A stretch of 41,126 bases of DNA from a virus. Both the position numbers and the translations under genes were made by a program. The notes beneath the pieces were generated by a model, which saw only the letters and a list, made by a program, of their open reading frames with translations, did no database searches and had not been told where the DNA came from. The DNA is taken from positions 1 to 41,126 of IMG/VR virus record IMGVR_UViG_3300022698_000231; one strand, given 5' to 3'. Shown here piece after piece: positions 15,249 to 33,724 of the stretch; position 1 is the stretch's first letter, and every line of letters begins with the position of its first letter.

Positions 15249-15449
15249 CTATAAATCATCTTTTAATCTTACTGTAATCTTTTCTATTAAATCATCCGTG
15301 TCATTTAAAGTTTTCATCTTAACATTGCGAACAAATACTACTGGTTTCACTTGCTCTTGAACATTAGTTCTGTATGGTGGAGCACCGCCTCCCCCATACC
15401 TGGTTCCACAACAGGATCTAAACTTACCCATTGTCGCAATGTCAATCAT
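15249..15449 (-). CDS. Small hypothetical protein
   Basis: A 66-residue protein, first gene of its leftward operon. It has a Cys-Cys pair and a glycine/proline-rich loop (RSCCGTRYGGGGAPPY), then a beta/helix part (VKPVVFVRNVKMK, DLIEKITVRLKDDL). The AAAGGAG ribosome site and ATG lie 12 bases after a late-type motif. I do not recognise a family. Its place at the head of the operon suggests high expression, perhaps as a small virion or assembly factor. Confidence 0.7.
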   Translation of the reverse strand: MIDIATMGKFRSCCGTRYGGGGAPPYRTNVQEQVKPVVFVRNVKMKTLNDTDDLIEKITVRLKDDL

Positions 15450-16669: not shown

Positions 16670-16686
16670 TTAAGTTTCTCCTTTAT

Positions 16687-17121
16687 TTATGGACCTGGAC
16701 CTGGACCTGGACCTGGACCACCTTCTAATTCAAATTCTATATTATCACACTCTCCATCATTGAAATTTCTAACAACCGCGTAAAATGGCGCGCTTGCAGG
16801 AATGCTGACAATTTCAGATGGAGCAAACCCAGTCAAAATAACAGTATCAAAAACATCTCCATCTCCTTCAACAATATAAACCCACATAGTTTCGCCAAGT
16901 GCTGAAAAATTATTTGCAGCCGCATAAATAGTACCGCCATCCGGAAGCTCATTATATTGTACTACAGCTGCATATTCATCGCCTGCAATGTTCAATGCAA
17001 TATTTTCTTCAAACCAATCAGTTGCTATATGTGCTGGATTGTCAATCGCATCTTGTAATGTTTCATAGCTTCCACATGCGGGGGGAACAACTGATTTCTT
17101 AACAGCAAACGTAACTGGCAT
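16687..17121 (-). CDS. Putative virion protein with (Gly-Pro)n tail
   Basis: A 144-residue beta-rich protein (IALNIAGDEYAAVVQY, MWVYIVEGDGDVFDTVILTGF, APFYAVVRNFNDGECDNIEFELEGG) ending in a Gly-Pro repeat (GPGPGPGPGP). The repeat is a perfect six-base tandem (GGTCCA on the minus strand) and probably varies in copy number. Its N terminus MPVTFAVKKSVVPP is shared with the corrected start of the gene two positions downstream, which marks them as related modules. Likely a small fibre or decoration component; ribosome site AAGGAGG. Confidence 0.65.
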   Translation of the reverse strand: MPVTFAVKKSVVPPACGSYETLQDAIDNPAHIATDWFEENIALNIAGDEYAAVVQYNELPDGGTIYAAANNFSALGETMWVYIVEGDGDVFDTVILTGFAPSEIVSIPASAPFYAVVRNFNDGECDNIEFELEGGPGPGPGPGP

Positions 17122-17171
17122 ATTTAAAAGTTCCTCCTTATTACATGTTAATTATATTTTATTATTATAAC

Positions 17172-18767: not shown

Positions 18768-18796
18768 TATTTTAAATCTCCTGTAATTTTATTATC

Positions 18797-18994
18797 TTAA
18801 GAAGGTGGGTTGTTTTTCAATAACGTTAATATATCAAAACCCCTTCTATTACATTCACGATTATATCTAAATGATTTTTTTGCTCGTTCTTTTAATTCCT
18901 CAAAAAAACCATCTCCTTGCGGTACTTTTTCCGTATTTTGTCTTATAAGATCAGCTAGTTCCTGATCTGTTTTATCTTTTAAAGATTCAGACAT
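18797..18994 (-). CDS. Small helical hypothetical protein
   Basis: A 65-residue charged, all-helical protein (SLKDKTDQELADLIRQNTE, FFEELKERAKKSFRYNREC, NRRGFDILTLL). It has a perfect AGGAGG ribosome site and sits between two large beta-rich virion genes. Its size and composition suggest a small assembly chaperone or linker for the adjacent fibre proteins, but no family is recognised. Confidence 0.7.
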   Translation of the reverse strand: MSESLKDKTDQELADLIRQNTEKVPQGDGFFEELKERAKKSFRYNRECNRRGFDILTLLKNNPPS

Positions 18995-19012
18995 ATTTTT
19001 AATTCCTCCTAT

Positions 19013-20035
19013 TTATCCTACACAAAGTTTACAATCTTCAGGTTTAATCTGAACATATTTTCTATGCATAACAACGATACCAGATATTGCCCAATCATGA
19101 TCAGGTAATCTTGTTTCAAAAATACACTTTAATCTTAAGCCATGTGTAAGTTCATCTGTATCAGATGAATTAAAAACTTGAAAACCATCCCCTAAGATTT
19201 GAATTTTATTAAATGTTCTATTTAACACTAATTCAGTATGAAACATATTATATTGACCTTCGCCTGTTGGATTGGCTCTTAAGTTTTCAAATCTTCCTGT
19301 ATCACTATTCCAATCAGCATCCCAAAATGCAGGACTTGGGGAAACTGATGGATCTGATGGGGAATCTCTTGTTACAAGACCACCCCCATATGCTAATACA
19401 TCTTGAGCTAAATCAATTGTTCCTGTTCCAGGTTCTGCAGGAATAATAATAGGACCATATGTTGTAAATGAACTAGATGTTGAATCAATAACCGAAACAA
19501 CATCGGGAACAATATCAACAGTTATAATATCAAGAAAACACCCTTTCCATGTCAATACAACTTCATGAATCCAGCTTTCATTCTCCAAACTATTAAAATC
19601 AACATAAATTGTGTGGCTTGTTTCATCACCAATATTATGAACATGTGATAGATTATTTCCTTTGCCAAATATTGTTGGATCACTTCTATTATCACCTTCA
19701 CTTGTCCAATGAATTGCAAGTCCATCTTTTCTTGATGTTTGATGAACTCTTAATTTTCCTCCTTTATCACGAAATTCTTCTGAAAGCGAAACAGGTTGAG
19801 ATTTTGATGGCAACGACTCTCCGCTATGATTAGAAATTATCGTAACAAGGGCAGCAGAACTATCGACTGGCAATTCATCTTTAAACCATATAAAACAATC
19901 ATTTGGATCAGTATTGATATGTGATAATGCGATTGTTATCTCGGATTCTTGTATTTCATAAGTCAATTTATTTGTATTGACCTTTTTATTAGGAAAATCT
20001 CCCGTTATACTAAAAGTATATTTTGTTTCTGCCAT
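19013..20035 (-). CDS. Putative virion/fibre-associated protein
   Basis: A 340-residue beta-rich protein. The N-terminal part (YTFSITGDFPNKKVNTNKL, ITIALSHINTDPND) and middle (KLRVHQTSRKDGLAIHW, HTIYVDFNSLE) are strand-rich; a proline/serine segment (PSDPSVSPSPAFWDADW) precedes a C-terminal domain ending in CKLCVG, a possible metal or disulfide site. It starts directly after the largest collagen-like fibre stop (one base apart) behind TGGAGGG, suggesting coordinated synthesis. Possibly a fibre-binding or baseplate protein; the family is not recognised. Confidence 0.65.
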   Translation of the reverse strand: MAETKYTFSITGDFPNKKVNTNKLTYEIQESEITIALSHINTDPNDCFIWFKDELPVDSSAALVTIISNHSGESLPSKSQPVSLSEEFRDKGGKLRVHQTSRKDGLAIHWTSEGDNRSDPTIFGKGNNLSHVHNIGDETSHTIYVDFNSLENESWIHEVVLTWKGCFLDIITVDIVPDVVSVIDSTSSSFTTYGPIIIPAEPGTGTIDLAQDVLAYGGGLVTRDSPSDPSVSPSPAFWDADWNSDTGRFENLRANPTGEGQYNMFHTELVLNRTFNKIQILGDGFQVFNSSDTDELTHGLRLKCIFETRLPDHDWAISGIVVMHRKYVQIKPEDCKLCVG

Positions 20036-20036
20036 T

Positions 20037-22865
20037 TTAACTTACCCTCCAAAATTCTAATCTAGCTCTTCTTATATATGTTGTATCTCCATTTTCACTT
20101 CTGTAATCCAAGTCAAAATCATATGTAGTAGAAGCACTTAAATCAACATATGCAAAACCACTAAAAGGATAATAACTATTTGTATCTTTTGGTTCTATAA
20201 CTGGAGCAGCTAATGTTGTAGTATTATCTAACTGTACTTGCATGTACATGAAATCAGAAATTGAATCCGTTCTCATTTCACAGTGCCACCCAACTCTATA
20301 TTTTCCAGTTGTTAAACCACTAACTTGTAATGTTACTTTTTGTTGAAATGTTGTGCTTGTTGTAGTGCTTTCTGCATCACTAGCAGACTGTGCAAATGAT
20401 GAACCAAAAGTAGGAGTATCTGTTGTTATAGTTACTCTTGCAACACCACTTCCTTGATCTGTTGCTGTAACAGATGCCCCTCTAAAGTCTAATGTTGAAT
20501 GAGGCGTATTTGCTATATCAACCCCTTCTTCTTGAACATCAATAGTTGAACCAGTGCCTGGAGGACCAGTATCTCCCTTTGGACCAACTGCTGGAGCATC
20601 ATAAATAACTAATTCTGAGTCAGCAGCAAATAATACTGTATTGCTAGTGCCTTGTGTTTTCATAGCTTGAACTTTTAATTTATCTCCAACTGCTAAATCT
20701 AGAATCATAGGAGATGTAGCACTAGCACCATGATTTGCCTGCCTGTTATACATCTGGCCTGTACTACCAGGAACTAAAGCATAACCCGATCCTGTATCTA
20801 AAGCAAGACGACATGCAGATTGACTTCTACCACCACCCAATGATGATACTTTATAATGAACAATATATTTCCCCGCTGTAGCTATTGTAACTTCTGCTGA
20901 TGGGGATGTATGTGTAAAAGCTGATGTTTTTTCTCTTGTATTATTAAGAGGCATATCAGTCCAGCCAGTACCAATTGCCGCAGTACCTGAATAATATAAA
21001 TCACAATGATGTGGTGTTTTAGAAGTACCTGATGTTCCTGATGACCCGCTAGATCCAGATGTACCGGTATTACCACTACTCCCTGAACTACCAGAAGAAC
21101 CCGAACTTCCACTTGAACCTGATGATCCCGAAGACCCACTTATTCCTGAGCTACCACTCGACCCTGATGATCCACTTGTTCCGTCTATTCCTGATGTTCC
21201 AGAAGAACCGCTTGAACCACTCGATCCTGATGATCCGGAAGTTCCAGACGCCCCACTTGATCCTGAGCTACCAGAGCTTCCTGAAGTTCCATCAGATCCA
21301 TCTGAACCTGATGTACCACTTGAACCAGACGAACCAGAAGAACCTGACGTTCCATCATTGCCATCTACCCCCGAAGTACCTGATGAACCAGAAGTACCAT
21401 CTATTCCAGATGTGCCGCTTGATCCGCTTGTACCATCATTTCCATCTATACCTGAAGTACCAGAAGATCCCGAACTGCCTGAAGTGCCATCTTCGCCAGA
21501 TGTACCCGACGTTCCATCCTCACCACTTGTTCCACTCGAACCGGATGATCCAGATGTTCCTGAAGAACCTGAAGATCCACTTGTTCCATCATCACCATCT
21601 ACCCCCGAAGTTCCACTTGAACCTGATGACCCGCTTGTACCATCAATACCTGAAGTACCAGAAGAACCCGAACTACCTGAAGTACCATCGTTTCCATCTA
21701 TACCGGATGTACCACTTGATCCTGAAGTGCCATCATTACCAGATGTACCAGATGACCCACTTGTTCCATCATCACCATCTATTCCTGATGTTCCAGAAGA
21801 CCCCGAAGTTCCGGAAGAACCACTTGACCCAGAAGTTCCTGTATTACCAGATGTTCCAGAAGATCCCGAAGAACCAGATGTTCCGGAAACTCCATCTGCG
21901 CCTGACGTACCAGAAGACCCAGACGTACCGGATGATCCTGAAGTTCCTGAATTACCCGAAGACCCACTTGTGCCAGAACTTCCTGATGACCCCGAAGAAC
22001 CACTGGAGCCACTTGTGCCACTATTTCCCGAGCTACCTGATGTGCCCGATGTTCCATCTTCACCGCTTGTTCCTGATGATCCGCTAGTTCCATCATCGCC
22101 ATCTACTCCTGAAGTTCCCGATGTACCACTTGATCCAGATGATCCGGATGAACCGGACGTTCCATCATCTCCTGAAATACCTGATGTACCGCTAGATCCT
22201 GATGATCCGGACGTTCCATCATCTCCTGATATACCTGATGTACCACTTGAACCAGATGTTCCATCATTTCCATTTACCCCCGATGTACCGCTAGATCCTG
22301 ATGATCCGGACGTTCCATCATTACCATCTATTCCTGAAGTTCCGGAAGACCCTGAGCTACCTGATGTGCCCGATGTTCCATCTTCACCACTTGATCCAGA
22401 TGACCCGGAAGTCCCATCTATTCCTGATGTTCCGGAAGAACCACTACTACCACTTGATCCTGATGTACCACTAGTTCCTGAATCTCCTCCAGGATTGTTA
22501 TACCAAACACCCGCTGTTGCATCATAAAGAAAAATATCATTTTCAAGTGGATTATTAACATTAAATATAGTTCTATCAGCACCATTTGTAATAGCGTATT
22601 GTTCATGATCATCTCTGGATAATCCAGATAATTCACCATGAGATACAGACTCCTCTGTCTTTGTAATAGAATTTCCAAATTCATCAACCACCGTAATCCA
22701 TCCATTATCAATTGCAGCTTGAACATCTAACGATGCTCGAATATCCTCATCTCGAAATTGATCTTCTAAATCATAATCAACTAAAGGATGGGTATATGAA
22801 ACACCACCCAAATCTCCGAAAACAATCGGAGATTGGATTCCGGTTGTAGTTATTCTAAATGCCAT
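20037..22865 (-). CDS. Collagen-like Gly-Ser/Thr repeat tail fibre (large)
   Basis: A 942-residue fibre. Residues 1-126 are an N-terminal domain (MAFRITTTGIQSPIVFGDLG, IRASLDVQAAIDNGWITVVD) shared with the next fibre and probably used for attachment. Residues about 127-612 are an uninterrupted Gly-X-Y-like repeat of GTSGSSG units with occasional DG, NDG and EDG inserts. The C-terminal 330 residues hold two beta-sandwich heads, C1q/TNF-like in pattern, separated by a true collagen phrase (GPKGDTGPPGTG). Repeats of this kind trimerise in phage fibres. The extreme Ser/Thr density makes it a plausible O-glycosylation target for the enzyme at 27005-29812. AGGAGAAG ribosome site. Confidence 0.88.
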   Translation of the reverse strand: MAFRITTTGIQSPIVFGDLGGVSYTHPLVDYDLEDQFRDEDIRASLDVQAAIDNGWITVVDEFGNSITKTEESVSHGELSGLSRDDHEQYAITNGADRTIFNVNNPLENDIFLYDATAGVWYNNPGGDSGTSGTSGSSGSSGSSGTSGIDGTSGSSGSSGEDGTSGTSGSSGSSGTSGIDGNDGTSGSSGSSGTSGVNGNDGTSGSSGTSGISGDDGTSGSSGSSGTSGISGDDGTSGSSGSSGSSGTSGTSGVDGDDGTSGSSGTSGEDGTSGTSGSSGNSGTSGSSGSSGSSGSSGTSGSSGNSGTSGSSGTSGSSGTSGADGVSGTSGSSGSSGTSGNTGTSGSSGSSGTSGSSGTSGIDGDDGTSGSSGTSGNDGTSGSSGTSGIDGNDGTSGSSGSSGTSGIDGTSGSSGSSGTSGVDGDDGTSGSSGSSGTSGSSGSSGTSGEDGTSGTSGEDGTSGSSGSSGTSGIDGNDGTSGSSGTSGIDGTSGSSGTSGVDGNDGTSGSSGSSGSSGTSGSDGSDGTSGSSGSSGSSGASGTSGSSGSSGSSGSSGTSGIDGTSGSSGSSGSSGISGSSGSSGSSGSSGSSGSSGSSGNTGTSGSSGSSGTSGTSKTPHHCDLYYSGTAAIGTGWTDMPLNNTREKTSAFTHTSPSAEVTIATAGKYIVHYKVSSLGGGRSQSACRLALDTGSGYALVPGSTGQMYNRQANHGASATSPMILDLAVGDKLKVQAMKTQGTSNTVLFAADSELVIYDAPAVGPKGDTGPPGTGSTIDVQEEGVDIANTPHSTLDFRGASVTATDQGSGVARVTITTDTPTFGSSFAQSASDAESTTTSTTFQQKVTLQVSGLTTGKYRVGWHCEMRTDSISDFMYMQVQLDNTTTLAAPVIEPKDTNSYYPFSGFAYVDLSASTTYDFDLDYRSENGDTTYIRRARLEFWRVS
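21030..22487 (-). repeat. Low-complexity Gly-Thr-Ser-Gly coding repeat
   Basis: A degenerate tandem repeat coding about 486 residues of GTSGSSG-type units. Synonymous codons vary from copy to copy, so DNA identity between units is limited. This would reduce recombination while keeping the peptide repeat. Irregular acidic inserts (DGNDG, EDG, DD) appear every 10-30 residues. Confidence 0.9.
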
Positions 22866-24842
22866 TTAGATTCTTCTCCTGAAATAAGCTGTCACTAATG
22901 GTCTGTCAATACTTGTTCCATTACAATAAAACTGAATTCTATCACCTTCATTAAAATCAGTATCTTTTGTATAGTCATGATTTTCTCTTGCATTTGTAAC
23001 AGTTAAAGAATCAAGAACTGTCACTGCATCATTTCTTCTAACTTCAATTGTGTATGTTTGTGTTGTGCTTTCTCCTGAAACCCCCATTCCAACTAATGTA
23101 GCATTAAATGGAAGAACATAACCATTCAAGTTTGTTGGCACTCCATCATATGAATATAGATATTGGTTAGATGTAGCAACAGAATCACGACTTGCCTCAA
23201 ATGAAATAATTGATGTTGAAAGAGTTTTACTTCTTTCTTCATCAAAATAAACAACTTCATTTGCTGTTGAATCATAATGAACGCCAGATGCACTTGTACC
23301 TGATGTTCCACTAGAACCAGATGTTCCTGATGTTCCAGAGCTACCAGATGTACCATCAACTCCGCTCGTTCCTGACGTGCCTGAGCTACCGCTTGTACCA
23401 CTACTTCCGGATGTTCCTGAAGTTCCTGATGATCCACTTGTGCCACTTGAACCTGATGTTCCTGATGTACCAGAGCTACCAGATGTTCCGTCAACACCGC
23501 TTGTGCCTGAGCTTCCGCTTGTACCACTTGAACCTGATGTTCCAGCAGGACCTTGAACACCACTTGTTCCTGATGAACCTGATGTTCCTGAACTACCACT
23601 TGATCCTGATGAACCTGATGTTCCAGCTCCACCCATGAAAATAGGAGTGATTAAATTAGAAGCATTAGTTGTTCCTTCAAAATACAAAGTAACATCAACA
23701 TTGCTTGTTGAATCTGCATAAACTTCTAATCTTAATCTATCATCTACATCAAAATCAACAGGGCTTCCCTGAACAACATCCCAAATATATTGCTGTGGCG
23801 TTGTACTGTTAATATCTGAAGAACTTCCAGTTGCAAGAAGTGTTGTTGCACCGCCTGGTTCTAATTTATAAACATTGAATTTTAGATTGGTAAAACCATC
23901 TGCATCACTTACAGATGCATAGAATCTAGCCTCCCAAATACCAGAAGGCATTGCTTCAATTGCAGGATCTCCAACTAAAGTATCCCATGTCGAAATCAAC
24001 GTTTCGCTTACAACATTTGTAGCTGTAAGTGAAGCTTGTGGTGCCTCTCCTGGATCTCTTGAAAGTAAGAAATTTGTATTTGCGGTTTCATCTTTCAAGA
24101 AATAGATTGCGCCTCTTGGAGTTGCTCCAGAAGTTCCTGATGAACCAGATGATCCGCTTGTTCCAGAGCTCCCTGATGTGCCTGATGTTCCAGATGAACC
24201 TGATGTTCCATCAATACCACTTGTTCCTGATGTACCACTTGAACCGCTTGTTCCGTCAACACCAGATGTTCCTGATGATCCTGATGTACCACTTGAACCG
24301 CTTGTTCCGCTACTACCTGATGTTCCGCTTGTTCCGCTACTACCTGATGTGCCTGATGACCCGGAAGTTCCCGATGAACCACTTGTTCCGTCAACACCAG
24401 ATGTTCCTGATGTACCACTTGTTCCAGAGCTTCCAGATGAACCTGACGTTCCGGATCCTCCTGTATTAGCAGTGTTATACCAAACACCAGTCGTTGAATC
24501 GTAAACTAAAATTTCTTGTTCTGCTGGATTATTAACATCAAGTATAGCTCTTGAGTTTCCATCAGTTCTAACATATTGTAAGTGATCATCTCTTGATAAC
24601 GCTGATAATTCACTATGCGATACAGCTTCCGTAACATTTGTAATAGAGTTTCCAAAAGCATCAACTACAGTTATGTGACCATTGTCAATTGCAGCTTGAA
24701 CATCTAAGGATGCTCTAATTTCTTCCTGTGTATATTCAGATTCGAGATCATAACTGTTAGTTGGATGTGGATAACTTCTTCTTCCCAAATCCGAAAATAC
24801 TACAGGATTTTGGGTACCCGTAGTTGTAAATATAAATGCCAT
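22866..24842 (-). CDS. Collagen-like Gly-Ser/Thr repeat tail fibre (two repeat blocks)
   Basis: A 658-residue modular fibre. Residues 1-126 are a close paralogue of the larger fibre's N terminus. A first GTSGSSG block (about 127-240) leads to a beta-sandwich module (about 242-400: GAIYFLKDETANTNFLL, EARFYASVSDADGFTNLKF). A second repeat block (about 404-518, with a GVQGPAG collagen phrase) precedes a C-terminal head of about 140 residues (NLNGYVLPFNATLVGMGVSGES, YTIEVRRND). This head is shared with the next fibre at 24845. The set looks like fibres assembled by shuffling N-terminal, repeat and head modules. Ribosome site AAGGAGA; stop abuts the next start. Confidence 0.88.
   Translation of the reverse strand: MAFIFTTTGTQNPVVFSDLGRRSYPHPTNSYDLESEYTQEEIRASLDVQAAIDNGHITVVDAFGNSITNVTEAVSHSELSALSRDDHLQYVRTDGNSRAILDVNNPAEQEILVYDSTTGVWYNTANTGGSGTSGSSGSSGTSGTSGTSGVDGTSGSSGTSGSSGTSGSSGTSGTSGSSGTSGSSGTSGSSGTSGVDGTSGSSGTSGTSGIDGTSGSSGTSGTSGSSGTSGSSGSSGTSGATPRGAIYFLKDETANTNFLLSRDPGEAPQASLTATNVVSETLISTWDTLVGDPAIEAMPSGIWEARFYASVSDADGFTNLKFNVYKLEPGGATTLLATGSSSDINSTTPQQYIWDVVQGSPVDFDVDDRLRLEVYADSTSNVDVTLYFEGTTNASNLITPIFMGGAGTSGSSGSSGSSGTSGSSGTSGVQGPAGTSGSSGTSGSSGTSGVDGTSGSSGTSGTSGSSGTSGSSGTSGTSGSSGTSGSSGTSGTSGVDGTSGSSGTSGTSGSSGTSGTSASGVHYDSTANEVVYFDEERSKTLSTSIISFEASRDSVATSNQYLYSYDGVPTNLNGYVLPFNATLVGMGVSGESTTQTYTIEVRRNDAVTVLDSLTVTNARENHDYTKDTDFNEGDRIQFYCNGTSIDRPLVTAYFRRRI
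23291..23633 (-). repeat. Second GTSG repeat block of the 658-residue fibre
   Basis: Coding repeat of about 115 residues of GTSGSSG-type units, with one GVQGPAG collagen-like break and two GVDG breaks. It separates the middle beta-sandwich module from the C-terminal head. Confidence 0.85.
24120..24465 (-). repeat. First GTSG repeat block of the 658-residue fibre
   Basis: Coding repeat of about 115 residues of GTSGSSG-type units interrupted by GVDG and GIDG. It links the N-terminal attachment domain to the middle module. At DNA level, units reading GTACCAGATGT-like phrases recur with codon variation. Confidence 0.85.
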
Positions 24843-24844
24843 AA

Positions 24845-25564
24845 TTAAAATCTCCTTCTGAAGAATAGAGTAGCATGTGGATAACTAATAGATGTTCCAC
24901 TACAATAAATCATTATTCTATCTCCAGCACTAAAATCAACATTATTGTTATTACTAAAATTTGAGTATTGATTCGTTATTGTTAAACTATCCTGAGCAAT
25001 ACCACCCCCATTTTTCCTTACTTCTATAGTCCATGTTTGAGTGTTTGATTCGCCTGACATAGAGATACCGATGAGAGTTGAATTCCAAGGAAGGACGAAA
25101 CCATTTAGGTTGGCAGGAACATCACCTTCAAGTCTAAGATATTGATCTGTTACAGTTGGATGATTTCTTCCAACGCCTTGTTGTATAACTGCAACGCCTA
25201 AATTTTTAGTTCTTGTCACATCATAAAAGTAAACATCTCCAGAAGTTGAATCGACATAAATATTAGGAGTTGATCCTGATGTACCTGACGATCCAGAAGA
25301 GCCAGAGGTTCCACTCGTACCTGAAGTACCTGATGTACCGCTAGTTCCAGCTGTTCCTGCTATAAATAAATTCCAATATGTTTGCCAGTTTACTCCAACT
25401 CCTGGTTCGCTATCTGAAGTCGCACAATGATCAGCAATAGCAATATAAGCATCACCGTTATTTTCTACTAAATCATTTACAACATAACATGTACCATCTG
25501 ACCAAGGACCTTTCCAATCCAGGCCAGAATCTATAGCTTGTCTGATTATTGTATCTCTAAGCAT
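24845..25564 (-). CDS. Short GTSG-repeat fibre with carbohydrate-binding-like N terminus
   Basis: A 239-residue fibre. Residues about 16-68 (DWKGPWSDGTCYVVNDLVENN, then YIAIADHCATSDSEPG and WQTYWNLF) match the pattern of small chitin-binding or CBM5/12-type modules, with conserved Trp and Tyr. A short GTSG repeat (about 70-100) follows. The C-terminal head (NLNGFVLPWNSTLIGISMSGES, WTIEVRKNGG) is a paralogue of that of the 658-residue fibre. It is the first gene of the leftward operon, 57 bases after a late-type motif, with an AAGGAAA ribosome site. Probably a receptor- or glycan-contacting fibre. Confidence 0.82.
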   Translation of the reverse strand: MLRDTIIRQAIDSGLDWKGPWSDGTCYVVNDLVENNGDAYIAIADHCATSDSEPGVGVNWQTYWNLFIAGTAGTSGTSGTSGTSGTSGSSGSSGTSGSTPNIYVDSTSGDVYFYDVTRTKNLGVAVIQQGVGRNHPTVTDQYLRLEGDVPANLNGFVLPWNSTLIGISMSGESNTQTWTIEVRKNGGGIAQDSLTITNQYSNFSNNNNVDFSAGDRIMIYCSGTSISYPHATLFFRRRF

Positions 25565-25620
25565 TTAGTATATTTCCTTATTAATATTCGAAAACGGTAA
25601 ACCGATAGCATCTCAGGTTA

Positions 25621-25637
25621 TTTATATTTTGTTCTAA
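25621..25637 (-). promoter_or_regulatory. Late-type promoter motif
   Basis: Minus strand reads TTTAGAACAAAATATAAA-like sequence, an excellent copy of the consensus. It lies in the gap between the sulfotransferase-like gene and the three fibre genes and would drive the fibre and virion operon down to 15513. Confidence 0.7.
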
Positions 25638-25654
25638 ATTTGACGACTCTTCGT

Positions 25655-26149
25655 TTACAAAATTTCAAAACTTTTTAATACATCAATAGCATGTGATTTA
25701 TTCTTTACCATTGAGGTATATGGAAAGAAATAAACACCACTTGTTTTATTTGAGATTCTATCAAATATAACGTTGTATTGATAAGTAGTTTGCATCCACC
25801 CATCCATTTGATCAGCAGCATGACCTCTTGAAATCTTTGATCTTACAATTTCAGCCAAATCTCTCACAACCAATAACCATTTTGTACTATAACCAGCATT
25901 CAAAAACTGTGTATCAATACGGTTTAAATCTTGATAACTACCAGCGTGAGGGACGCTACGGCGAAAAATAATTTTATTAATATCTTTAGGAACGATAGCA
26001 TCGATTGGAATTCTTCCAGCAACAAAATCATCAAGTTGTTGAATGTGTGCATCGGTTCCCCAATAACCACCATGTTCAATCATAAATCTGGTGGTTCCTC
26101 TTGTACCTGCTGATTCTGGTCCAAAGACAAAAAGCATCTTTTTTCTCAT
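25655..26149 (-). CDS. Sulfotransferase-like P-loop protein
   Basis: A protein of about 164 residues with an N-terminal nucleotide-binding pattern (MLFVFGPESAGTRGTTRFM) in place of a classical Walker A. A second segment, KWLLVVRDLAEIVRSKISRG, corresponds to the 3'-phosphate-binding arginine/serine loop of PAPS-dependent sulfotransferases. The C terminus (GVYFFPYTSMVKNKSHAIDVL) also fits that fold. The start at 26149 is favoured since AGGAGA is properly spaced to it and too close to the ATG six bases earlier. It lies downstream of the glycosyltransferase giant and upstream of the fibres, so sulfation of a glycan is conceivable but unproven. Confidence 0.6.
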   Translation of the reverse strand: MRKKMLFVFGPESAGTRGTTRFMIEHGGYWGTDAHIQQLDDFVAGRIPIDAIVPKDINKIIFRRSVPHAGSYQDLNRIDTQFLNAGYSTKWLLVVRDLAEIVRSKISRGHAADQMDGWMQTTYQYNVIFDRISNKTSGVYFFPYTSMVKNKSHAIDVLKSFEIL

Positions 26150-26205
26150 GTTCATTCTCCTAGCATTTTTATGTTATTCTGTTGTGTGATTTTTAGGGGA
26201 TGGTG

Positions 26206-27015
26206 TCATATACACACAACATTTGCTATTTTAGAAGTCGAGCATTCATCTTTATGACCATATTTATAATGACATTCTTTACAAACGCTCCATGCTAAGT
26301 CTGGATCTAGAGCAAAAAACGGTTCAAGTTTTTGAGGTCTTTCGTGATGAATATGTTCTGCTTGCTTACCACAATATTGACAAGCATATTGATCTCTTTT
26401 TAGAACGAATTCTCTAAATTGTTTATATTCACTATCAGTATAAACTAATGATGCATCATAAAAAATATCAACTTTTAATCTATAAAGAGGACACTCTTTC
26501 TTGCATTTTTCTGAACAATAAAAATAACAACCATCATAACCATTTTCAACATGTCTTATTCGATCTGAAAATTGATATTTAGTTGGTGTAAACCATCCGC
26601 CTCTCTCTTTTGAATTTTGGCAATTATGATTTTTACAATGAACTTGAATTTCTTTTTCTCCTGGTTTATAAGGGTTGTATCGCATTTCTTCTATTTTAAA
26701 AAATATTTTGTATTTATTTTTAACTCTTTCTATACTAAGACGAGCTCCAATCCCCATCTTTCTTCTTAATTTTTTTGAAATTTTTCGTTTCTTATTTCCA
26801 ATGCTAATTTTTTTCTTCGTTTCGTCATCAAGAGACTTTCCTAAATTGGCCTTTCTTATTTTTTCAATTGTCTCTTTAGTTCTCTTTTGCCCTTTACATG
26901 AATTACTTACTCTTTTCTTAACAGCTTCACATAAATTAGTTCGTTTAGAGCAACACTTTTTTCCGTTTTTAAAAATATATTCATATTTTTTTCCGCATCC
27001 ATAATCACAGTACAT
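26206..27015 (-). CDS. HNH homing endonuclease with NUMOD3-like region
   Basis: A 269-residue endonuclease. It begins with MYCDYGCGKKYEYIFKNGK and a Cys pair, then a lysine-rich NUMOD3-type region (TKETIEKIRKANLGKSLDDE, TKKKISIGNKKRKI). A second Cys-rich section (CKNHNCQNSKERGGW, CSEKCKKECP) precedes the C-terminal HNH core: FVLKRDQYACQYCGK, AEHIHHERP and CKECHYKYGHKDEC. Its ATG lies 11 bases inside the end of the upstream glycosyltransferase gene. It is codon- and composition-wise more AT/lysine-rich than the neighbouring enzymes, as expected for a mobile gene. Confidence 0.87.
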   Translation of the reverse strand: MYCDYGCGKKYEYIFKNGKKCCSKRTNLCEAVKKRVSNSCKGQKRTKETIEKIRKANLGKSLDDETKKKISIGNKKRKISKKLRRKMGIGARLSIERVKNKYKIFFKIEEMRYNPYKPGEKEIQVHCKNHNCQNSKERGGWFTPTKYQFSDRIRHVENGYDGCYFYCSEKCKKECPLYRLKVDIFYDASLVYTDSEYKQFREFVLKRDQYACQYCGKQAEHIHHERPQKLEPFFALDPDLAWSVCKECHYKYGHKDECSTSKIANVVCI

Positions 27016-29812
27016 TATCAGTCCCTATTAAATCCTTAATTTCTTCTATAACATATTCAGGAGAAATCTCTTTTGTACATTCAAATTGTCTGGGTGTTCC
27101 TCCATGCCTTGGACACCACAGCCATTGACCTCTATCGAAATTGTTATTAACATCATTAAAACACCCATGACAAACATTCGTGTTAATTATTCTTTTAATA
27201 TTAGAAGTAAATTCTGCCCAAGGCATGCTGTAGCCTGAGATCATAACAACAGGTTTTCTTAACGCCCAAGCAACCCAAGAAGGACCTGCGCTAACGCCCA
27301 TGTGAAATTCAGCATGATAGATATTTGTAATAGTTTCTTTTATAGTTCGATTAGTTCTGTTAATAACATTTTTCAACTTCGTTTCCTCTTTGCTTATAAC
27401 CATAACTCTATATCCATTATCGTTAAGCCAATCAATAATAGTTTGCCAGCCATTTTCTCTATTAAAAAACTTACACTGAAATGTGCTGAACTCTGAAATC
27501 GTTACATATTTTTCATTGACAGTTCTCTCTCCTGGTTTAATAGAAAGTTCAGTAACAATTTCTTTATAATCTACCCCCAATGTATCAAATGCAACTTTCT
27601 GTAAAGGTACAGTTCTCCAATCAAATTTATTTTTGTGAATATCACCTTCGTAACAACCTATTGCATATGATGCATACAAATTAGGAATATTAGAACCTGG
27701 AGGGACAAATTGAAGATTTGGATATGAATCTCTAAACAAGTCATTCCAAAATGTTGACACAACAACTTCGCATTCGTGCTTCTTTCTAAATTCTTCAACA
27801 GCAGGTACCCAGGCAATTGAATCACCAAGAGATTTAGTATCAAAAGAAACAAGGGCACGTTTTCCCTTCAAATCAAATTGATGTTCATAATCTATCTTGC
27901 CATTCTTTCTAACTTGGACTAACCAATTTGTAAACCATTTTCTAAATGGTCTAGTCCAATGATTAATCTTTAGAAGCTGTTGATGAACACTTGAATTGTT
28001 ATCAGGATCTAGAAAATCAATTAGATAGTATGATCTATCATGGGCGTCTCCTTGAATTTCAAGAAAAGGTCCATCAACAAAATGACACCCATAATATGTA
28101 TCATGCTTAACCTTATAAGGTTTCTTTTTTGCAGTACATTGAATTTCTTCCCCATGACCTCTATTGCCAACGTCACAATGAGTCACTTCGAAATCAAAAG
28201 ATTCAAGGAATGATTTTAAACTTGCAGGATTATGACCACTAAAATGTGTATTGCCTTCGTGAGATTGTGACCCAAAGATACGATGAACCTCAAACCATTT
28301 TTTATCATCAGGAGTATCAAGCCAAATACGAACCTCATGTTCAAGGTTTGGTAGATACATTTGTAATCGACCTTTCGGTCTAAGGACTCTTCGCCATTCA
28401 TCTAGAACACCATAAACATCATTTATTCCAATGTGCTCGAAAACATGCGAAGTATAAATTTCATCAACAGATTCATCAGGAAAAGGGAGAGCTCCCAAAT
28501 CGCAACTAAGGTCGACACTACCAGTATTGTTATACCTGTCAATATTAATGTAGCCATCAAGAATTTCATTGCCACACCCCAAATTTAATTTTACACCAAC
28601 GTCAATATCTTCAATATCATCAGGAACTTGAAATGATTTTTGTTGAAGCAGATCATTGATATATTTCTCTGCCGCCATTGCCGAATTATCCCATGACCAA
28701 ACTTTTCGAAATAGTCCGGAATATTTTAATGCAGCGTCTCGGTGAAAATTATGATAATGATCATATGCTTGAGTTATCTGAAATCTTAGATGATCAAAGT
28801 CTGGTTCCGCCCAAACTCCATAATCATGACCATCCCCTAACATAAATACTTTCTCTGGAGATTTAAACTCTTTAATATCAACTAACAAAGATATATCTTT
28901 TGCAAATTCTAATTGACCACTCCAATTTGAGCATATGGTTGGGATACCACACGCAATAGCTTCACTCAGTGGAAGATTCCATCCTTCAGATCTCGAACAG
29001 CTTAGAAATATATCTCCTGCTCTCATCCAAGAGACATATTCATTTCTATCTGGAAAATGTAAAACTCTTATCTTATCGCTTTCAAGTCCATAATGCTTTA
29101 GACGTTCTTCTGTAGTTTTCATCCCATCTACTGAAAACGGGTTATCAGCAGATATAACAAGAATTGCTTTATCGTCTTCGTTAAATGCTTCAAGAAATGC
29201 TTGTACCATCTCTTTTACAGACTTTCGATAATCCCATCTTCCAAAAATCATAAAGATCATATGATCATGAGGTATCTTATACTTCTCACATAAATCCCAT
29301 CTTATAGATTCTCGCTCATCTCCAATAGCTGGTTTGAAAATGTTTCCATTGACAGCTTCAGGAACAACTTTAACTCTATGCTCGGGATACCCTTGTTCAA
29401 TTGTGCATTGACGTTGCCATTCAGTAGGACACCAGAATTGATCAAACTGTAAAATACGATTAAAGAATTCCGGAATTTGTTTCGTTGCTTCCCAGACATT
29501 ATAAGCAATCATTGGAGATTCATATTGATCATAAAAGAAATAATGATGACTTTCATTCAAGACAATATTCACATAAGTTGTATTTGGATCTTTTACAAAA
29601 GGTCTTCCGATTTTATAAGGCGGGTCTTGCCAATCCTGTTCAATTATCATATTCATCTGTTCTTCAGTTAAATACGATAAATCATTATGGTAGGTATAAT
29701 TCCTAATTCTAACTGGAATTAATTTATTTAGATTTGTAAAGAAATTTTTTGAATGGTTGTTATATCCTGTGTGGCCAATAAAAGACGTATGACCAATAAC
29801 TTGAGTATTCAT
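27005..29812 (-). CDS. GT4 glycosyltransferase / SAM methyltransferase / BAHT-type heptosyltransferase fusion
   Basis: A 935-residue three-domain enzyme. Residues 1-395: GT4 (GT-B) glycosyltransferase, with MIFGRWDYRKS and SRSEGWNLPLSEAIACGIP (about 273-291). Residues 405-560: class I SAM methyltransferase, with LNLGCGN (409-415), SCDLGALPFPDESVDEI and RVLRPKGRL. Residues 570-930: a GT9-like domain matching autotransporter O-heptosyltransferases (BAHT/TibC family): FVDGPFLEIQGD, KSLGDSIAWVPAVEEFRKKH, STFWNDLF, and GVSAGPSWVAWALRKPVV. Cysteines 881, 884, 900 and 912 (CHGC, WLWCP, FEC) form the family's metal-finger pattern. BAHT enzymes add heptose to serines of repeat adhesins. With Ser/Thr-rich fibres downstream, these are likely substrates (inference). 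AAGGAC site. Confidence 0.85.
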   Translation of the reverse strand: MNTQVIGHTSFIGHTGYNNHSKNFFTNLNKLIPVRIRNYTYHNDLSYLTEEQMNMIIEQDWQDPPYKIGRPFVKDPNTTYVNIVLNESHHYFFYDQYESPMIAYNVWEATKQIPEFFNRILQFDQFWCPTEWQRQCTIEQGYPEHRVKVVPEAVNGNIFKPAIGDERESIRWDLCEKYKIPHDHMIFMIFGRWDYRKSVKEMVQAFLEAFNEDDKAILVISADNPFSVDGMKTTEERLKHYGLESDKIRVLHFPDRNEYVSWMRAGDIFLSCSRSEGWNLPLSEAIACGIPTICSNWSGQLEFAKDISLLVDIKEFKSPEKVFMLGDGHDYGVWAEPDFDHLRFQITQAYDHYHNFHRDAALKYSGLFRKVWSWDNSAMAAEKYINDLLQQKSFQVPDDIEDIDVGVKLNLGCGNEILDGYINIDRYNNTGSVDLSCDLGALPFPDESVDEIYTSHVFEHIGINDVYGVLDEWRRVLRPKGRLQMYLPNLEHEVRIWLDTPDDKKWFEVHRIFGSQSHEGNTHFSGHNPASLKSFLESFDFEVTHCDVGNRGHGEEIQCTAKKKPYKVKHDTYYGCHFVDGPFLEIQGDAHDRSYYLIDFLDPDNNSSVHQQLLKINHWTRPFRKWFTNWLVQVRKNGKIDYEHQFDLKGKRALVSFDTKSLGDSIAWVPAVEEFRKKHECEVVVSTFWNDLFRDSYPNLQFVPPGSNIPNLYASYAIGCYEGDIHKNKFDWRTVPLQKVAFDTLGVDYKEIVTELSIKPGERTVNEKYVTISEFSTFQCKFFNRENGWQTIIDWLNDNGYRVMVISKEETKLKNVINRTNRTIKETITNIYHAEFHMGVSAGPSWVAWALRKPVVMISGYSMPWAEFTSNIKRIINTNVCHGCFNDVNNNFDRGQWLWCPRHGGTPRQFECTKEISPEYVIEEIKDLIGTDNVL

Positions 29813-29837
29813 TTACAGTCCTTTCACAATTCTGATA

Positions 29838-29854
29838 TTTACATTTTGTTCTTA
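29838..29854 (-). promoter_or_regulatory. Late-type promoter motif
   Basis: Minus strand reads TAAGAACAAAATGTAAA, 26 bases before the glycosyltransferase start and overlapping the stop of the DUF1353 gene. It gives the glycosyltransferase-HNH-sulfotransferase unit its own late-type start. Confidence 0.65.
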
Positions 29855-30250
29855 AACTTGATTTTTAAAACTAATGCCTAATCTATGTTTGTACCAAGCA
29901 CCCCAACCAAAAACCACAACTCCATAATACATTGATTCTCTTTTCCATTTTGGAACTTCTAATACTTCCATTCCTTCTAAGAAAATTTGGTCTGATCTAA
30001 GTTTGGGATAACATGCAGTTTCATAACAGTAATCATGTATCACAGATGCTTTACCATATTTACCATTGGGAGGAATTAACCAGTGTAAAAAAGTTGGGGT
30101 GCTTGCAAAATCAGTAACGAAGCCTTTCGGAACAACTATAATTTCATCGCTGGGATAATCTCCAACGTGATATTCAAATCCTTCTAAAAGTCTGTAGAAT
30201 TTACTATTTCCAATCTGCTCAGTAACAAGTTCAGTTGTAAATTCACTCAT
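29852..30250 (-). CDS. DUF1353 family protein
   Basis: A 132-residue protein matching the DUF1353 phage family: IVVPKGFVTDFASTP, LHWLIPPNGKYGKASVIHDYCYE, then an aspartate-containing helix (RSDQIFLEGMEVLEVPKW) and a final VVVFGWGAW. The conserved Asp, His-Asp and Asp residues suggest a metal-binding or hydrolytic site, but the biochemical role is not established. In other phages it often sits near lysis or tail genes. The start codon overlaps the stop of the upstream gene (TAATG). Confidence 0.82.
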   Translation of the reverse strand: MSEFTTELVTEQIGNSKFYRLLEGFEYHVGDYPSDEIIVVPKGFVTDFASTPTFLHWLIPPNGKYGKASVIHDYCYETACYPKLRSDQIFLEGMEVLEVPKWKRESMYYGVVVFGWGAWYKHRLGISFKNQV

Positions 30251-30729
30251 TATGGTAGTGTCCCGTCTTTATGCCAATCGCGTATTTGTTGTCTTAAGTC
30301 TTCTAAGTCTGATGCTCTTTCTTTTGTAATTTGATCAGATAACGCATCGAATTTTTTATCTAAATGTTTTTCAATTATTTGATCGCTATCTGAAACTGCC
30401 CTAACTATAAAATAACCACCTGTTGCTATCGTAACAATCAGCCCTATAGAAATAAGCAATTTTGTAAGTTTTCCTTTTATAGACCTGAGTTCTCCCATTA
30501 CATCATTAGAAGTTACTGAAACAACCTGAGAACATGCATCTATATTTTTTGCCGAATCTCTGGCATGTTCTTTTAAGGCCTGCTTTAGATCTTCAATCGG
30601 CAAATTTTTTATTTGATTGACTAGTTCTAGTTGTTGAACAACAAGCTGTCTTGTAGTTTCCTCATTTTTATCAGATGATGCTTTTAAAGTCTCAAACAAC
30701 TTAACTAGAATCTCGATATTATCTGTCAT
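30250..30729 (-). CDS. Single-pass membrane protein with coiled coil
   Basis: A 159-residue protein: N-terminal cytosolic helix (about 1-85, with a coiled-coil pattern), one membrane helix (LTKLLISIGLIVTIATGGYFIVRAV, about 87-112), and a charged C-terminal helix (KHLDKKFDALSDQITKERA). This is topologically like phage spanins, sensory adaptors or membrane scaffolds. Being adjacent to the REC-PAS-PAS gene (1 base apart) it could be that protein's membrane partner, though no known family supports this. AGAGG ribosome site. Confidence 0.7.
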   Translation of the reverse strand: MTDNIEILVKLFETLKASSDKNEETTRQLVVQQLELVNQIKNLPIEDLKQALKEHARDSAKNIDACSQVVSVTSNDVMGELRSIKGKLTKLLISIGLIVTIATGGYFIVRAVSDSDQIIEKHLDKKFDALSDQITKERASDLEDLRQQIRDWHKDGTLP

Positions 30730-30730
30730 A

Positions 30731-32044
30731 TTAAAAAACCTCTGAACTAGATTTTGCTGACATGAACTCTATCTCTTGATTTATTAAATCTAATGCTCTA
30801 TCTCTTTCAATATTTTTTTCTATCATTTCTTTTTTCCAAGATTTAATTCTATTTTCTAGTTGATTGAAAACTTCTGTTTCTTTCTCTTTTATCATTCTTT
30901 CTGCCATTACTTTATGTGTTATATCAATTGCAACAACATTTGCACCAATAACATTTTTCTGATCATCTTCTATAAACCTAGCAGTTAGCATAATCCATAT
31001 AGATGAACCGTCTTTCCTTATAGCTTCATATTCTGTAGCATCCTCTATATATTCACCTCTTTTTAGTTTTTCTATTCTATTAAGAAATTTCTTCGATCCC
31101 TCTTCTGTCAAAAATTCAAAAGGACTCATTTCCAACAATTCTTTTTTAGTGTAACCGCTTTGTTTACAAACAACATCATTGACATAAGAAAATTTCATAT
31201 TTCGAAAATCTATTTCGTAAACTCCAGCGCCTGTAGCTTCAACTAGTTGTTTATATCTAATTTCATTTTCAAGTATTTTTTCCTGCATGTAAACTTGTTC
31301 TGTTATATTTTCGAATGATAAAACTAAATCGTTCGATGCCGTTCTGTGGCCATGAATTTTGAAATACCCTTTTGGAATTCTATGATCTTCATATTCAATA
31401 CACATACTAAAAGGAATGCCTTCTTTTAATGTTTTTAGATAAGTCTCTTTCAACTCATCAGAAACACCGGGAAATGCTTCCTGTAAAGTTTTGTATAATA
31501 GCTTCGAATTATCTAGATTCAAAATATCATCAGCCGAAGGGTTATAATCTACTAAAATAATTTCATTGTCTATTAACTTAAATATATTATAACCAAGAGG
31601 TGAAGTCCTTATAATGTCTTTATACATATTTTCAGCATTTGCTCTTTCGATTGCATACTTAATTGACCTTACAAGGATAGATGGAGAAATTTCAGGTTTG
31701 ACTAAATAATCTTGTGCACCCTTTTTAACACATTCACAAGCAATATCTTCATATGCTGAAATAATAACAATTGGTATATCAGGACATGTTTCTTTAACCC
31801 TTTTAAACGTACCGACTCCATGACTATTTGGTAATATCAAATCAAGCAAAATAGCATGGACTTTATCCTCTAGTTCTGTAGAACAGTTATTTTTAAGATA
31901 TTCTATTCCGCTTTCTAATGTCGTTTTAGATATGACATTAAATTTTGTATTTTTAGACTTTTCCAAAAAATGACTTATTAAAGTAAAAAGCTGTTCGTCA
32001 TCTTCAATGTATAGAAGATTTAATGTTTCCTCGTTTATGCTCAT
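30731..32044 (-). CDS. REC-PAS-PAS signalling protein
   Basis: A 437-residue protein. Residues 8-125 are a response-regulator receiver with all key residues: acidic pair D15-D16 (YIEDDE), phospho-acceptor D68 (LLDLILPNSHG), S96 (IISAYED) and K116 (VKPE). A PAS domain follows at about 130-250 (TSPLGYNIFKL, ADDILNLDNSKLL) and a second PAS/PAC at 262-385 (RYKQLVEATGAGVYEIDF, YEAIRKDGSSIWIMLTARF, GANVVAIDITHKV). The last 50 residues are a coiled coil. No kinase, GGDEF or DNA-binding domain is present, so output must be protein-protein. Two-component proteins are rare in phages. It probably intercepts host phosphorelay signals. GAGG ribosome site. Confidence 0.88.
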   Translation of the reverse strand: MSINEETLNLLYIEDDEQLFTLISHFLEKSKNTKFNVISKTTLESGIEYLKNNCSTELEDKVHAILLDLILPNSHGVGTFKRVKETCPDIPIVIISAYEDIACECVKKGAQDYLVKPEISPSILVRSIKYAIERANAENMYKDIIRTSPLGYNIFKLIDNEIILVDYNPSADDILNLDNSKLLYKTLQEAFPGVSDELKETYLKTLKEGIPFSMCIEYEDHRIPKGYFKIHGHRTASNDLVLSFENITEQVYMQEKILENEIRYKQLVEATGAGVYEIDFRNMKFSYVNDVVCKQSGYTKKELLEMSPFEFLTEEGSKKFLNRIEKLKRGEYIEDATEYEAIRKDGSSIWIMLTARFIEDDQKNVIGANVVAIDITHKVMAERMIKEKETEVFNQLENRIKSWKKEMIEKNIERDRALDLINQEIEFMSAKSSSEVF

Positions 32045-32046
32045 TT

Positions 32047-32490
32047 TTAAACCTCAATATCAGGATTGTTTTTTTCTAATGTCAAAATAACAAATCTCTT
32101 TGAAAAAGCTATAGATGTGATTAGAACATTTTCTATAGATTCTTCATAATCTACTAGTTCTAATTTAACTTCCAGAATAAAAGCTACTGATAGTTCATTC
32201 TCCAACTTAACAATTGTTATACGAGGGGGAAAGATAGAGGGAAGTTTTCCTCTATTTCTTAATTCTTGTATTATGTCATTAACATCTTCAGTTAACCGCT
32301 CTGCTTTCTCCTGACTAGGAGGTTGAAATTGAAAGGATTCAATGTGTTTTTTTATAGCAGGATACAAATCATTTTGAAGAGTAGCTGAATAATCATTGAG
32401 CGTTGGTCTCTCAGATTGTCGTGAGATAGCCACAGAGGGGAATGTAAGTAATATAATAAAAAATAAAACTATAGTAATTATTTTTTTCAA
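32047..32490 (-). CDS. Exported protein, TTG start
   Basis: A 147-residue protein with a signal peptide (KKIITIVLFFIILLTFPSVAIS) and a mature part having a helix (LYPAIKKHIESFQF), a helical repeat (AERLTEDVNDIIQELRNRG) and beta strands at the end. The start is a TTG codon, supported by GGGGGAG seven bases upstream. It is the first gene of the operon that includes the REC-PAS-PAS gene, 36 bases after a late-type motif. Could be a periplasmic partner or ligand sensor for the downstream membrane and signalling proteins; not proven. Confidence 0.75.
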   Translation of the reverse strand: MKKIITIVLFFIILLTFPSVAISRQSERPTLNDYSATLQNDLYPAIKKHIESFQFQPPSQEKAERLTEDVNDIIQELRNRGKLPSIFPPRITIVKLENELSVAFILEVKLELVDYEESIENVLITSIAFSKRFVILTLEKNNPDIEV

Positions 32491-32525
32491 ATCCTTTCTC
32501 CCCCATTTTTAGCGAATTATCTTCC

Positions 32526-32542
32526 TTTATATTTTGTTCTAA
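32526..32542 (-). promoter_or_regulatory. Late-type promoter motif
   Basis: Minus strand reads TTAGAACAAAATATAAA, the consensus itself. It lies 36 bases before the TTG start of the exported protein and 44 bases from the divergent early-type motif at 32587. Confidence 0.7.
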
Positions 32543-32586
32543 GAATGAGTAAAATTAGTTTTATACTAATCATTATAAAAAATAAA

Positions 32587-32602
32587 TTCTATATATATTA
32601 AT
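32587..32602 (+). promoter_or_regulatory. Early-type promoter motif
   Basis: Exact TTCTATATATATTAAT followed by AAGTGAAATGAAAA, matching the TGAA phase seen after other copies. It faces away from the late-type motif at 32526 and leads to the micropeptide gene at 32721. Confidence 0.75.
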
Positions 32603-32606
32603 AAGT

Positions 32607-32675
32607 GAAATGAAAACCTTCTTTCATTTCCTCCTTAACCACCCGGACCCGATGTCCTAACTCATCGGGCCCGGG
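32607..32675 (+). promoter_or_regulatory. Leader with two stable hairpins
   Basis: The 118-base leader of the micropeptide gene contains GAAATGAAA/TTTCATTTC (32607-32630) and then a strong GC stem: CCCGG-A-CCCGATG paired with CATCGGG-C-CCGGG (32642-32675). Other early units in the window have short unstructured leaders, so this may be regulatory or act in RNA stability. Confidence 0.5.
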
Positions 32676-32720
32676 AAATAATCTTAAATACATTTTTTAT
32701 CTATTACATAAGGGGGTCGT

Positions 32721-32891
32721 ATGACATCATTATTTGGGATAACATTGTGGTTTGCTATTATTTACATATTCTTCTTCATGGATAATGACGACGAAAAACC
32801 CCCCAAGAGTAAAACCAAAACGATTTATCATGATTACGAGATCATCGACGGGGTTGTCGTTTACAAGAAGGGGATTGATATTACGATTTAG
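32721..32891 (+). CDS. Membrane micropeptide
   Basis: A 56-residue protein behind AAGGGGGTCGT. The first 20 residues (MTSLFGITLWFAIIYIFFFM) form a membrane helix; the rest is a charged cytosolic tail (DNDDEKPPKSKTKT, then IIDGVVVYKKGIDIT). No family recognised. It is the only gene between the early-type motif at 32587 and a repeat-hairpin region ending in a terminator. Typical of early phage proteins that target host membrane proteins. Confidence 0.7.
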   Translation: MTSLFGITLWFAIIYIFFFMDNDDEKPPKSKTKTIYHDYEIIDGVVVYKKGIDITI

Positions 32892-32919
32892 GTAGCATAG
32901 CTTAACGCATGACGCTACC

Positions 32920-33034
32920 GCCCGCTCTGGCATATGGCGGGATTAGTAATATGCCACTCGCCCTGGCATGCGGCGGGCCCTGCGGGGACAGTTGTGTGCT
33001 ATTCTCTTGCCACCGCTCTAGCATACGGCGGGAA
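32920..33034 (+). repeat. Three imperfect GC-rich hairpin repeats
   Basis: Three related units of about 20 bases occur at about 32922-32941, 32958-32977 and 33013-33032. Their cores are CCGCTCTGGCATATGGCGGG, CGCCCTGGCATGCGGCGGG and CCGCTCTAGCATACGGCGGG. Each can fold (CCGC with GCGG) around CAT-rich centres, and two follow TGCCAC. The GC content contrasts with the AT-rich surroundings. They lie after the micropeptide stop and before the terminator at 33078, so they would be in the 3' part of that transcript; no coding frame fits. Confidence 0.6.
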
Positions 33035-33077
33035 GATGTATGCTGCTGTGTTGTGTTTCCATTGTTGTACTCCTGAA

Positions 33078-33123
33078 AAGGGGGGTGCTCGGGTTCACTT
33101 GTGGATCTGGCACCCCTTTTTTT
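33078..33123. terminator. Intrinsic terminator
   Basis: GGGGTGC (33082-33088) pairs with GCACCCC (33110-33116), followed by seven T residues and preceded by AAAA, so it may work in both directions. It separates the rightward micropeptide/repeat transcript from the leftward SET-domain gene ending at 33122. Confidence 0.85.
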
Positions 33124-33724
33124 AGTGCACATTTTTATAAGCAGGGTCCGGAGTTTTATTGTCTTTGTCAATTCTTATCTTAACTTTGACTGGTTTGGTT
33201 GAACCTTTCAACTGATTAAGATATGTCTCGTCTTCAGGTTTTGGATTGGACCCCTGACCATAAACTGTTGCGCTCGCATCTTCAGTGTTTGGAGAAAATT
33301 GAATGTTTCGTTCATCGTCAGGATCAACCTGTACTTCTACTTCCCCTTCACCTTCAGGGGGTTCTTTTAAGATCACACGTTTCCCTTCCAAATTCCAATT
33401 GCGTTGCGGTTGTTCAAGATCCTTATTCTGAGTATAATCAAGAGTTATTTCCTCACCTGGTTCAATATCTTTTTCGGCATAAGTTTTAAACGAAAGATCT
33501 TTTTCTTTAACTGATTTCGCTGATGGTTTCGGAGAATGATTTAGATACCTTCCAAATTCAGTAATATCATAATTTGGATTAAAATGAGTATTTATAAAAT
33601 CTCCTTTACGAAAAGGTTTTGTTGCAAACACTCCTTGACCATGGATAGGAGAAGGTCTCAAAACGTAATTGTTCATTAATGATTTACTTTGTAATTCAGA
33701 AAGATATCTATTTATTGTTTCCAT
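33122..33724 (-). CDS. SET-domain protein lysine methyltransferase-like
   Basis: A 200-residue protein. Residues 18-98 contain the minimal SET domain: RPSPIHGQGVFATKPFRKGDF (about 23-43), YLNHSPKPS (60-68, the N-H-S motif) and a final YAEKDIEPGEEITLDYT (about 82-98). These residues bind S-adenosylmethionine and the target lysine. The middle pre-SET insertion is short. Residues 110-200 are a charged, Pro/Glu-rich tail (EPPEGEGEVEVQVDPDDE, STKPVKVKIRIDKDNK) of unknown role. It is a lone leftward gene flanked by a terminator and a late-type motif 15 bases upstream. Targets could be phage virion or host DNA-associated proteins; unknown. Confidence 0.85.
   Translation of the reverse strand: METINRYLSELQSKSLMNNYVLRPSPIHGQGVFATKPFRKGDFINTHFNPNYDITEFGRYLNHSPKPSAKSVKEKDLSFKTYAEKDIEPGEEITLDYTQNKDLEQPQRNWNLEGKRVILKEPPEGEGEVEVQVDPDDERNIQFSPNTEDASATVYGQGSNPKPEDETYLNQLKGSTKPVKVKIRIDKDNKTPDPAYKNVH

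Follow-up and report, generated by a model that had tools for sequence, protein, structure and literature searches.

What might a phage do with a response-regulator receiver (REC) that is fused to PAS domains, lacks an output domain and is encoded beside a membrane protein? The question is raised by an IMG/VR virus contig, IMGVR_UViG_3300022698_000231, analysed here over its whole length of 41,126 bases (hereafter, the window). The contig is linear and therefore probably a genome fragment. By its gene content it comes from a contractile-tailed phage: a tail sheath is encoded at 2242-4194, and 20037-24842 codes for large collagen-like tail fibres. The best-covering cultured phages among the matches listed have sheaths no more than about 31% identical to this one. 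The locus comprises minus-strand ORFs at 32047-32490, 30731-32044, 30250-30729 and 29852-30250.

The REC-PAS protein and its membrane partner

The ORF at 30731..32044 (minus strand) encodes a REC-PAS-PAS-helix protein of 437 residues without an output domain, as delineated from the reading frame, Pfam and an AlphaFold model (mean pLDDT 78) that places REC at residues 5-138, a PAS-like fold at 151-246, a linker helix at 248-271, a PAS fold at 274-374 and a terminal helix at 376-435. REC (31631..32032, minus strand) is supported by the model, by its active-site residues and by a Pfam Response_reg match (residues 11-118, E=3e-13), and receivers were also matched in a PDB profile search. The first-pass annotation had called this receiver catalytically intact, and the acidic residues E14/D15/D16, the phospho-acceptor D68, S96 and K116 are indeed all present. 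It had also proposed two PAS domains. The second, PAS-B (residues 274-374; 30923..31225, minus strand), adjoins the C-terminal helix and is recognized by alignment, model and Pfam (PAS_9/PAS, residues 263-376, E=2e-15/3e-12). The first, PAS-A (residues 151-246; 31307..31594, minus strand), has no Pfam match in the window protein and is defined there by predicted fold, through the PAS-like alpha/beta order of the model and tandem-PAS matches in Foldseek; the aligned part of a homologue, L007, weakly matches PAS_4. Both domains are thus supported. Foldseek matches of the model were tandem-PAS and REC-containing sensors, including LOV-PAS-HK, FixL, MmoS and a dual-sensor kinase, and the LOV motif NCRFLQ is absent from the sequence by eye.

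In the phage REC-PAS proteins, Pfam finds only REC and PAS, with no DNA-binding or enzymatic output domain and no HisKA or HATPase_c, and the C-terminus is one helix in the model, in keeping with the earlier claim that an output domain is lacking. This helix of about 60 residues (376-435; 30740..30919, minus strand; model and alignment) stands in place of the kinase and carries a conserved motif, KExxxFNxLExKIxxWKxEI.

The membrane-protein gene (30250..30729, minus strand) starts 1 base past the REC-PAS stop and encodes 159 residues with one transmembrane helix, as the first reading had it; reading frame, homologues and hydropathy agree on a single-pass protein. The transmembrane helix lies at residues 91-109 (30403..30459, minus strand; hydropathy 2.2). 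Lys and Arg are in excess on its N-terminal side in 6/7 homologues (L012 is unclear), so the N-terminal helical domain of about 90 residues (1-90; 30460..30729, minus strand), which is the conserved part in alignment, is probably cytoplasmic. The remaining helical tail (residues 110-159; 30253..30402, minus strand) is variable in alignment and, with the model, probably periplasmic. The predicted structure is all helix at low confidence (pLDDT 61). A search for the partner among solved structures gave no match. An Rz-like inner-membrane spanin was considered and rejected, as the transmembrane helix lies behind the conserved domain of about 90 residues; PHROG matches were weak and confined to L001 (E 0.005).

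The pair occurs in the same order in six further distinct IMG/VR sequences: L001 (3300037540_000328), L004 (3300022539_000485), L007 (3300031566_000025), L010 (3300028837_002851), L012 (3300027956_000036) and L014 (3300038629_000602). A contig nearly identical to L001 (L002) ends inside the REC-PAS gene, and L020 encodes a pair identical to that of L012. With the window included, the membrane gene lies directly 3' of the REC-PAS gene in 7/7 distinct sequences, at short or overlapping spacing; every membrane homologue found is located behind a REC-PAS gene, and scans of viral contigs with either protein returned largely identical contig sets. The only additional match, L015, a viral contig with a REC-PAS-kinase and no partner, was rejected as a member. 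This recurrence of the pair in seven distinct sequences is beyond chance. Since the pair recurs in six further viral sequences, it is a conserved phage module rather than a recent host fragment.

Members vary within this plan. One PAS domain is found in L001, L004, L010 and L014, and two in the window, L007 and L012. The active-site set (acidic pair, phospho-acceptor Asp, Ser/Thr and Lys) is kept in the window and five others; in L014, D15, D16 and K116 are replaced by G, S and P, which leaves a pseudo-receiver within an otherwise intact module (L014 5989-6915). In L010, an in-frame TAA falls within the PAS-coding stretch of this gene (6480-6620) and may be real or a sequencing error. Each contig carries one REC and no HATPase_c domain. 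No HATPase_c kinase was found on the eight contigs tested, and because these are fragments a kinase elsewhere in the genomes is possible.

The first-pass annotation had also assigned an exported protein to the operon. That ORF (32047-32490, minus strand; 147 residues, TTG start) does have a signal-peptide-like N-terminus; neither the remaining module contigs nor phage records contain a relative, and its proposed partnership falls away. A DUF1353 protein was rejected on the same grounds, having no relatives on other module contigs. The conserved unit is thus the REC-PAS and membrane proteins only. The GC-rich 17-mer CGCCRYATGCYAGRGCG occurs in three copies (32923-33030; 0.06 expected by chance), which lie some 430-540 bases upstream of the ORF for the exported protein, with none seen in the loci of the other contigs. 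Promoter and terminator scans did no better than on shuffled sequence.

Divergence, mobility and origin

Conservation is uneven across the pair. Mean identity is highest in REC (46%), the partner N-domain (40%) and the C-terminal helix (35%), and lower in the last PAS domain (29%), the transmembrane helix (29%) and the partner tail (24%). Across six members, the identity of REC rises and falls with that of the partner N-domain (r=0.77, permutation p=0.04). Between L001 and L010, dN/dS is 0.18 for the partner N-domain and 0.60 for its transmembrane helix and tail, and 0.23 for PAS plus helix and 0.56, only moderately low, for REC, against a DNA polymerase reference of 0.20. The cytoplasmic domain of the partner is under purifying selection.

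The window and L004 contigs come from related phages: 20 window ORFs have matches, the sheath is 82% identical and most other core genes are 54-77% identical. The module falls below this core, at 45% for the partner and about 50% for the REC-PAS protein. It also sits at a different site. On the L004 contig it lies between homologues of window 15252-15449 and 16154-16669, beside a DUF5675/holin-like cassette; in the window (30250-32044) it lies on the far side of a variable tail-fibre region. Because the sites differ and conservation is below that of the core, the pair would seem to be a movable cassette or to have been gained more than once. The tail-fibre island itself spans about 16 kb in the window (16154-33724) and about 4 kb on the L004 contig (L079 7388-12031), with the module at opposite ends.

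Other genes of these contigs deserve record. Three HNH-type endonuclease genes are scattered among the late genes of the window (4194-5102, 6864-7379 and, on the minus strand, 26206-27015). A minus-strand ORF at 27005-29812 encodes a 935-residue protein in which a glycosyltransferase, a methyltransferase and GT9-like domains are fused; in L014, a protein of similar size with a glycosyltransferase match lies directly behind the module. At 33122-33724 (minus strand) the phage encodes a SET-domain protein of the lysine-methyltransferase type, whose homologue on the L004 contig is 64% identical.

Outside the module, the best REC matches are REC-PAS proteins with an N-terminal receiver. L021 (a contig of an Akkermansia MAG) and L015 are among the closest bacterial relatives and carry HisKA/HATPase_c, and a REC-GGDEF protein (L038) is also among the close REC matches. 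A profile of the phage C-terminal helix found no match in the bacterial loci fetched. Because close outside RECs thus include REC-PAS-HisKA-HATPase_c proteins, in which the phage helix is unmatched, the natural reading is one of descent: the phage protein would derive from the sensor half of such a kinase. REC phylogeny, which the first-pass annotation had put forward as a way to the bacterial source, names none: the tree places phage RECs together with those of Bacteroidota, Verrucomicrobiota and Pseudomonadota, at poor resolution, and it neither establishes nor rejects a single phage REC clade (p-AU 0.135).

For the partner, profile scans of 992 bacterial genomes, from the three phyla of the L061, L025 and L038 genomes, gave weak matches only, all starting from profile position 53 or later. 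They lie mainly in the transmembrane helix and coiled coil (E about 1e-4 to 1e-3) and were taken as chance; against the bacterial matches fetched, the N-domain profile reached E=0.0035 at best. A pattern scan of genome contigs gave zero matches, so that the partner N-domain went unseen in the bacterial genomes scanned, and tblastn with the window, L007 and L012 partners found none in 50,697 phage records, which bears out, for cultured phages, the earlier remark that such proteins are rare in phages. The partner family appears to be new, without a known domain and so far restricted to viral contigs.

Possible functions of the module

The architecture suggests that these phages read the host signalling state at the inner membrane. 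In the reading that we tentatively favour, and hold at somewhat below even confidence, the module is a membrane-tethered phage receiver that integrates host phosphorylation with ligand binding by PAS and whose action, at the inner membrane, is by protein contact. There, the dedicated partner would hold the soluble REC-PAS(1-2)-helix protein, most likely through pairing of the C-terminal helix with the cytoplasmic helical domain of the partner. REC would be charged by histidine kinases of the host or by a small phosphodonor such as acetyl phosphate, and a ligand or cofactor would occupy the PAS domains. Together, these inputs would then alter the behaviour of the membrane complex by contact between proteins, with neither DNA binding nor catalysis involved, and with the probable output of docking on and redirecting host membrane kinases or of gating a phage process at the membrane. 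Complex, topology, phosphorylation, ligand binding and output are all elements that we infer. There is precedent for a kinase-less receiver acting on a kinase, as Osp inhibits CckA (PMC9430884), and non-cognate regulators can sequester kinases (PMC10368727).

L014 informs this reading most directly. Because its REC is degenerate, phosphorylation is not a requirement in all members; the loss of the phosphorylation site with retention of the module argues against a simple phosphate sink and speaks for membrane contact as the core function. Direct control of late transcription by the REC-PAS protein is unlikely because it has no DNA-binding domain, and the module may possibly control lysis or superinfection. 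A bolder version, which we consider somewhat unlikely, is that of a virus-born device: the kinase would have been removed from a bacterial REC-PAS kinase and the sensor half joined to a phage membrane protein, so that host phosphorylation and metabolic state gate a membrane decision (lysis time or exclusion) without transcription, as a sensor-gated holin or exclusion system. If the membrane-tethered receiver is real, lytic phages would bring into the cell a receiver of the two-component style together with its membrane effector, which would offer a direct route to testing whether, and at which infection step, phages read host kinase signalling.

Among the alternatives, we regard a lysis-timing switch as unlikely. 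Here the partner would act as a holin or antiholin-like protein under regulation: the REC-PAS protein would gate its cytoplasmic domain, and host phosphorylation or redox state would time lysis. The evidence for a lysis role, which is possible, is position and topology. The predicted topology of the partner (short cytoplasmic part, single transmembrane helix and periplasmic helix) resembles that of T4 holin T (PMC12162936), although no holin family in PHROGs or Pfam matches it. A divergent cassette including a holin-like gene begins within about 60-115 bp of the module in L001 and L010, DUF5675 and holin-like genes follow within about 2 kb in L004, and an endolysin gene lies about 3.3 kb away in L012; in the window, however, the module is about 16 kb from the holin-like cassette and its neighbourhood holds no lysis-type genes. 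Separate holin-like candidates also exist (L001 6389-6802 and, by resemblance only, window 13158-13844).

Quite unlikely, in our judgement, is a decoy whose REC would soak up phosphate from host kinases and silence a stress or envelope response. The phosphate sink had been offered in the first-pass annotation. In its favour, REC is intact and without output in 6/7 members, no kinase is seen on the contigs (which are fragments), and bacterial single-domain regulators provide a precedent. It is weakened because PAS domains, a conserved C-terminal helix and a dedicated membrane protein would all be superfluous in a sink, and because the L014 module is kept although its REC is without D15, D16 and K116. 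With the active site gone from that REC, a pure sink cannot be the whole role. Assignment to the class of stand-alone-REC sinks was rejected, given the PAS domains, helix and paired membrane gene.

Superinfection exclusion or envelope takeover, with the membrane protein as effector and the REC-PAS protein tuning or localizing it, seems improbable. The conserved part of the partner is probably cytoplasmic, not outward, and PHROGs and Pfam gave no similarity to known exclusion proteins; what favours this role is the variability of the outward part of a single-pass protein (dN/dS and mean identity as above) and the position of the module on the flank of the tail-fibre island in the window and L004 contigs. 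That the module is a piece of a host gene, recently captured and without function, is hardly credible. Bacterial REC-PAS-kinases exist from which truncation could have removed the kinase, and the PAS domain of L010 is interrupted by an in-frame stop; yet the same truncated architecture and partner occur in seven divergent sequences, with reading frames intact in 6/7 and purifying selection. Of the recent, unexpressed host fragment that the first-pass annotation had named as part of its refutation, there is no sign.

Relation to known systems

REC and PAS domains, and even histidine kinases, are already known in phages and other viruses; agrC of phage phiCDHM1 encodes a histidine kinase (PMC3901668). 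Among virus proteins in BFVD, A0A6J5L941 and A0A2L0UZB1, the two top matches and annotated as histidine kinases, and A0A8S5LY51, annotated as a response regulator, have REC or PAS folds, and no BFVD match covers the whole REC-PAS query at a good TM-score. The open-licence literature yielded no account of a REC-PAS protein that lacks a kinase and is paired with a member of this membrane family. The divergent cREC of jumbo phages, described as never occurring in systems with histidine kinases and as associated with NAD/ADP-ribose enzymes (PMC7824862), shares the receiver fold in a phage setting, whereas the window REC keeps the classical residues; the cREC profile PF20274 does not match the window protein at E 0.1.

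The partner resembles T4 holin T/RI in its single transmembrane helix and, probably, in a cytoplasmic N-terminus and a helix on the periplasmic side (PMC12162936), but T has a globular periplasmic domain, whereas the conserved domain of the partner is probably cytoplasmic, and there is no sequence similarity. Output-less regulators such as Osp resemble the phage protein in having no DNA-binding or enzymatic output and could likewise bind kinases (PMC9430884); in the phage protein, one or two PAS domains and a long helix come in addition, along with a membrane partner dedicated to it. REC-PAS-histidine kinases (L021 and L015) share with the phage proteins an N-terminal REC with a GAQDYLxK...YAIER region followed by PAS; where they carry HisKA and HATPase_c, the phage proteins have instead the conserved helix and the gene for the membrane partner.
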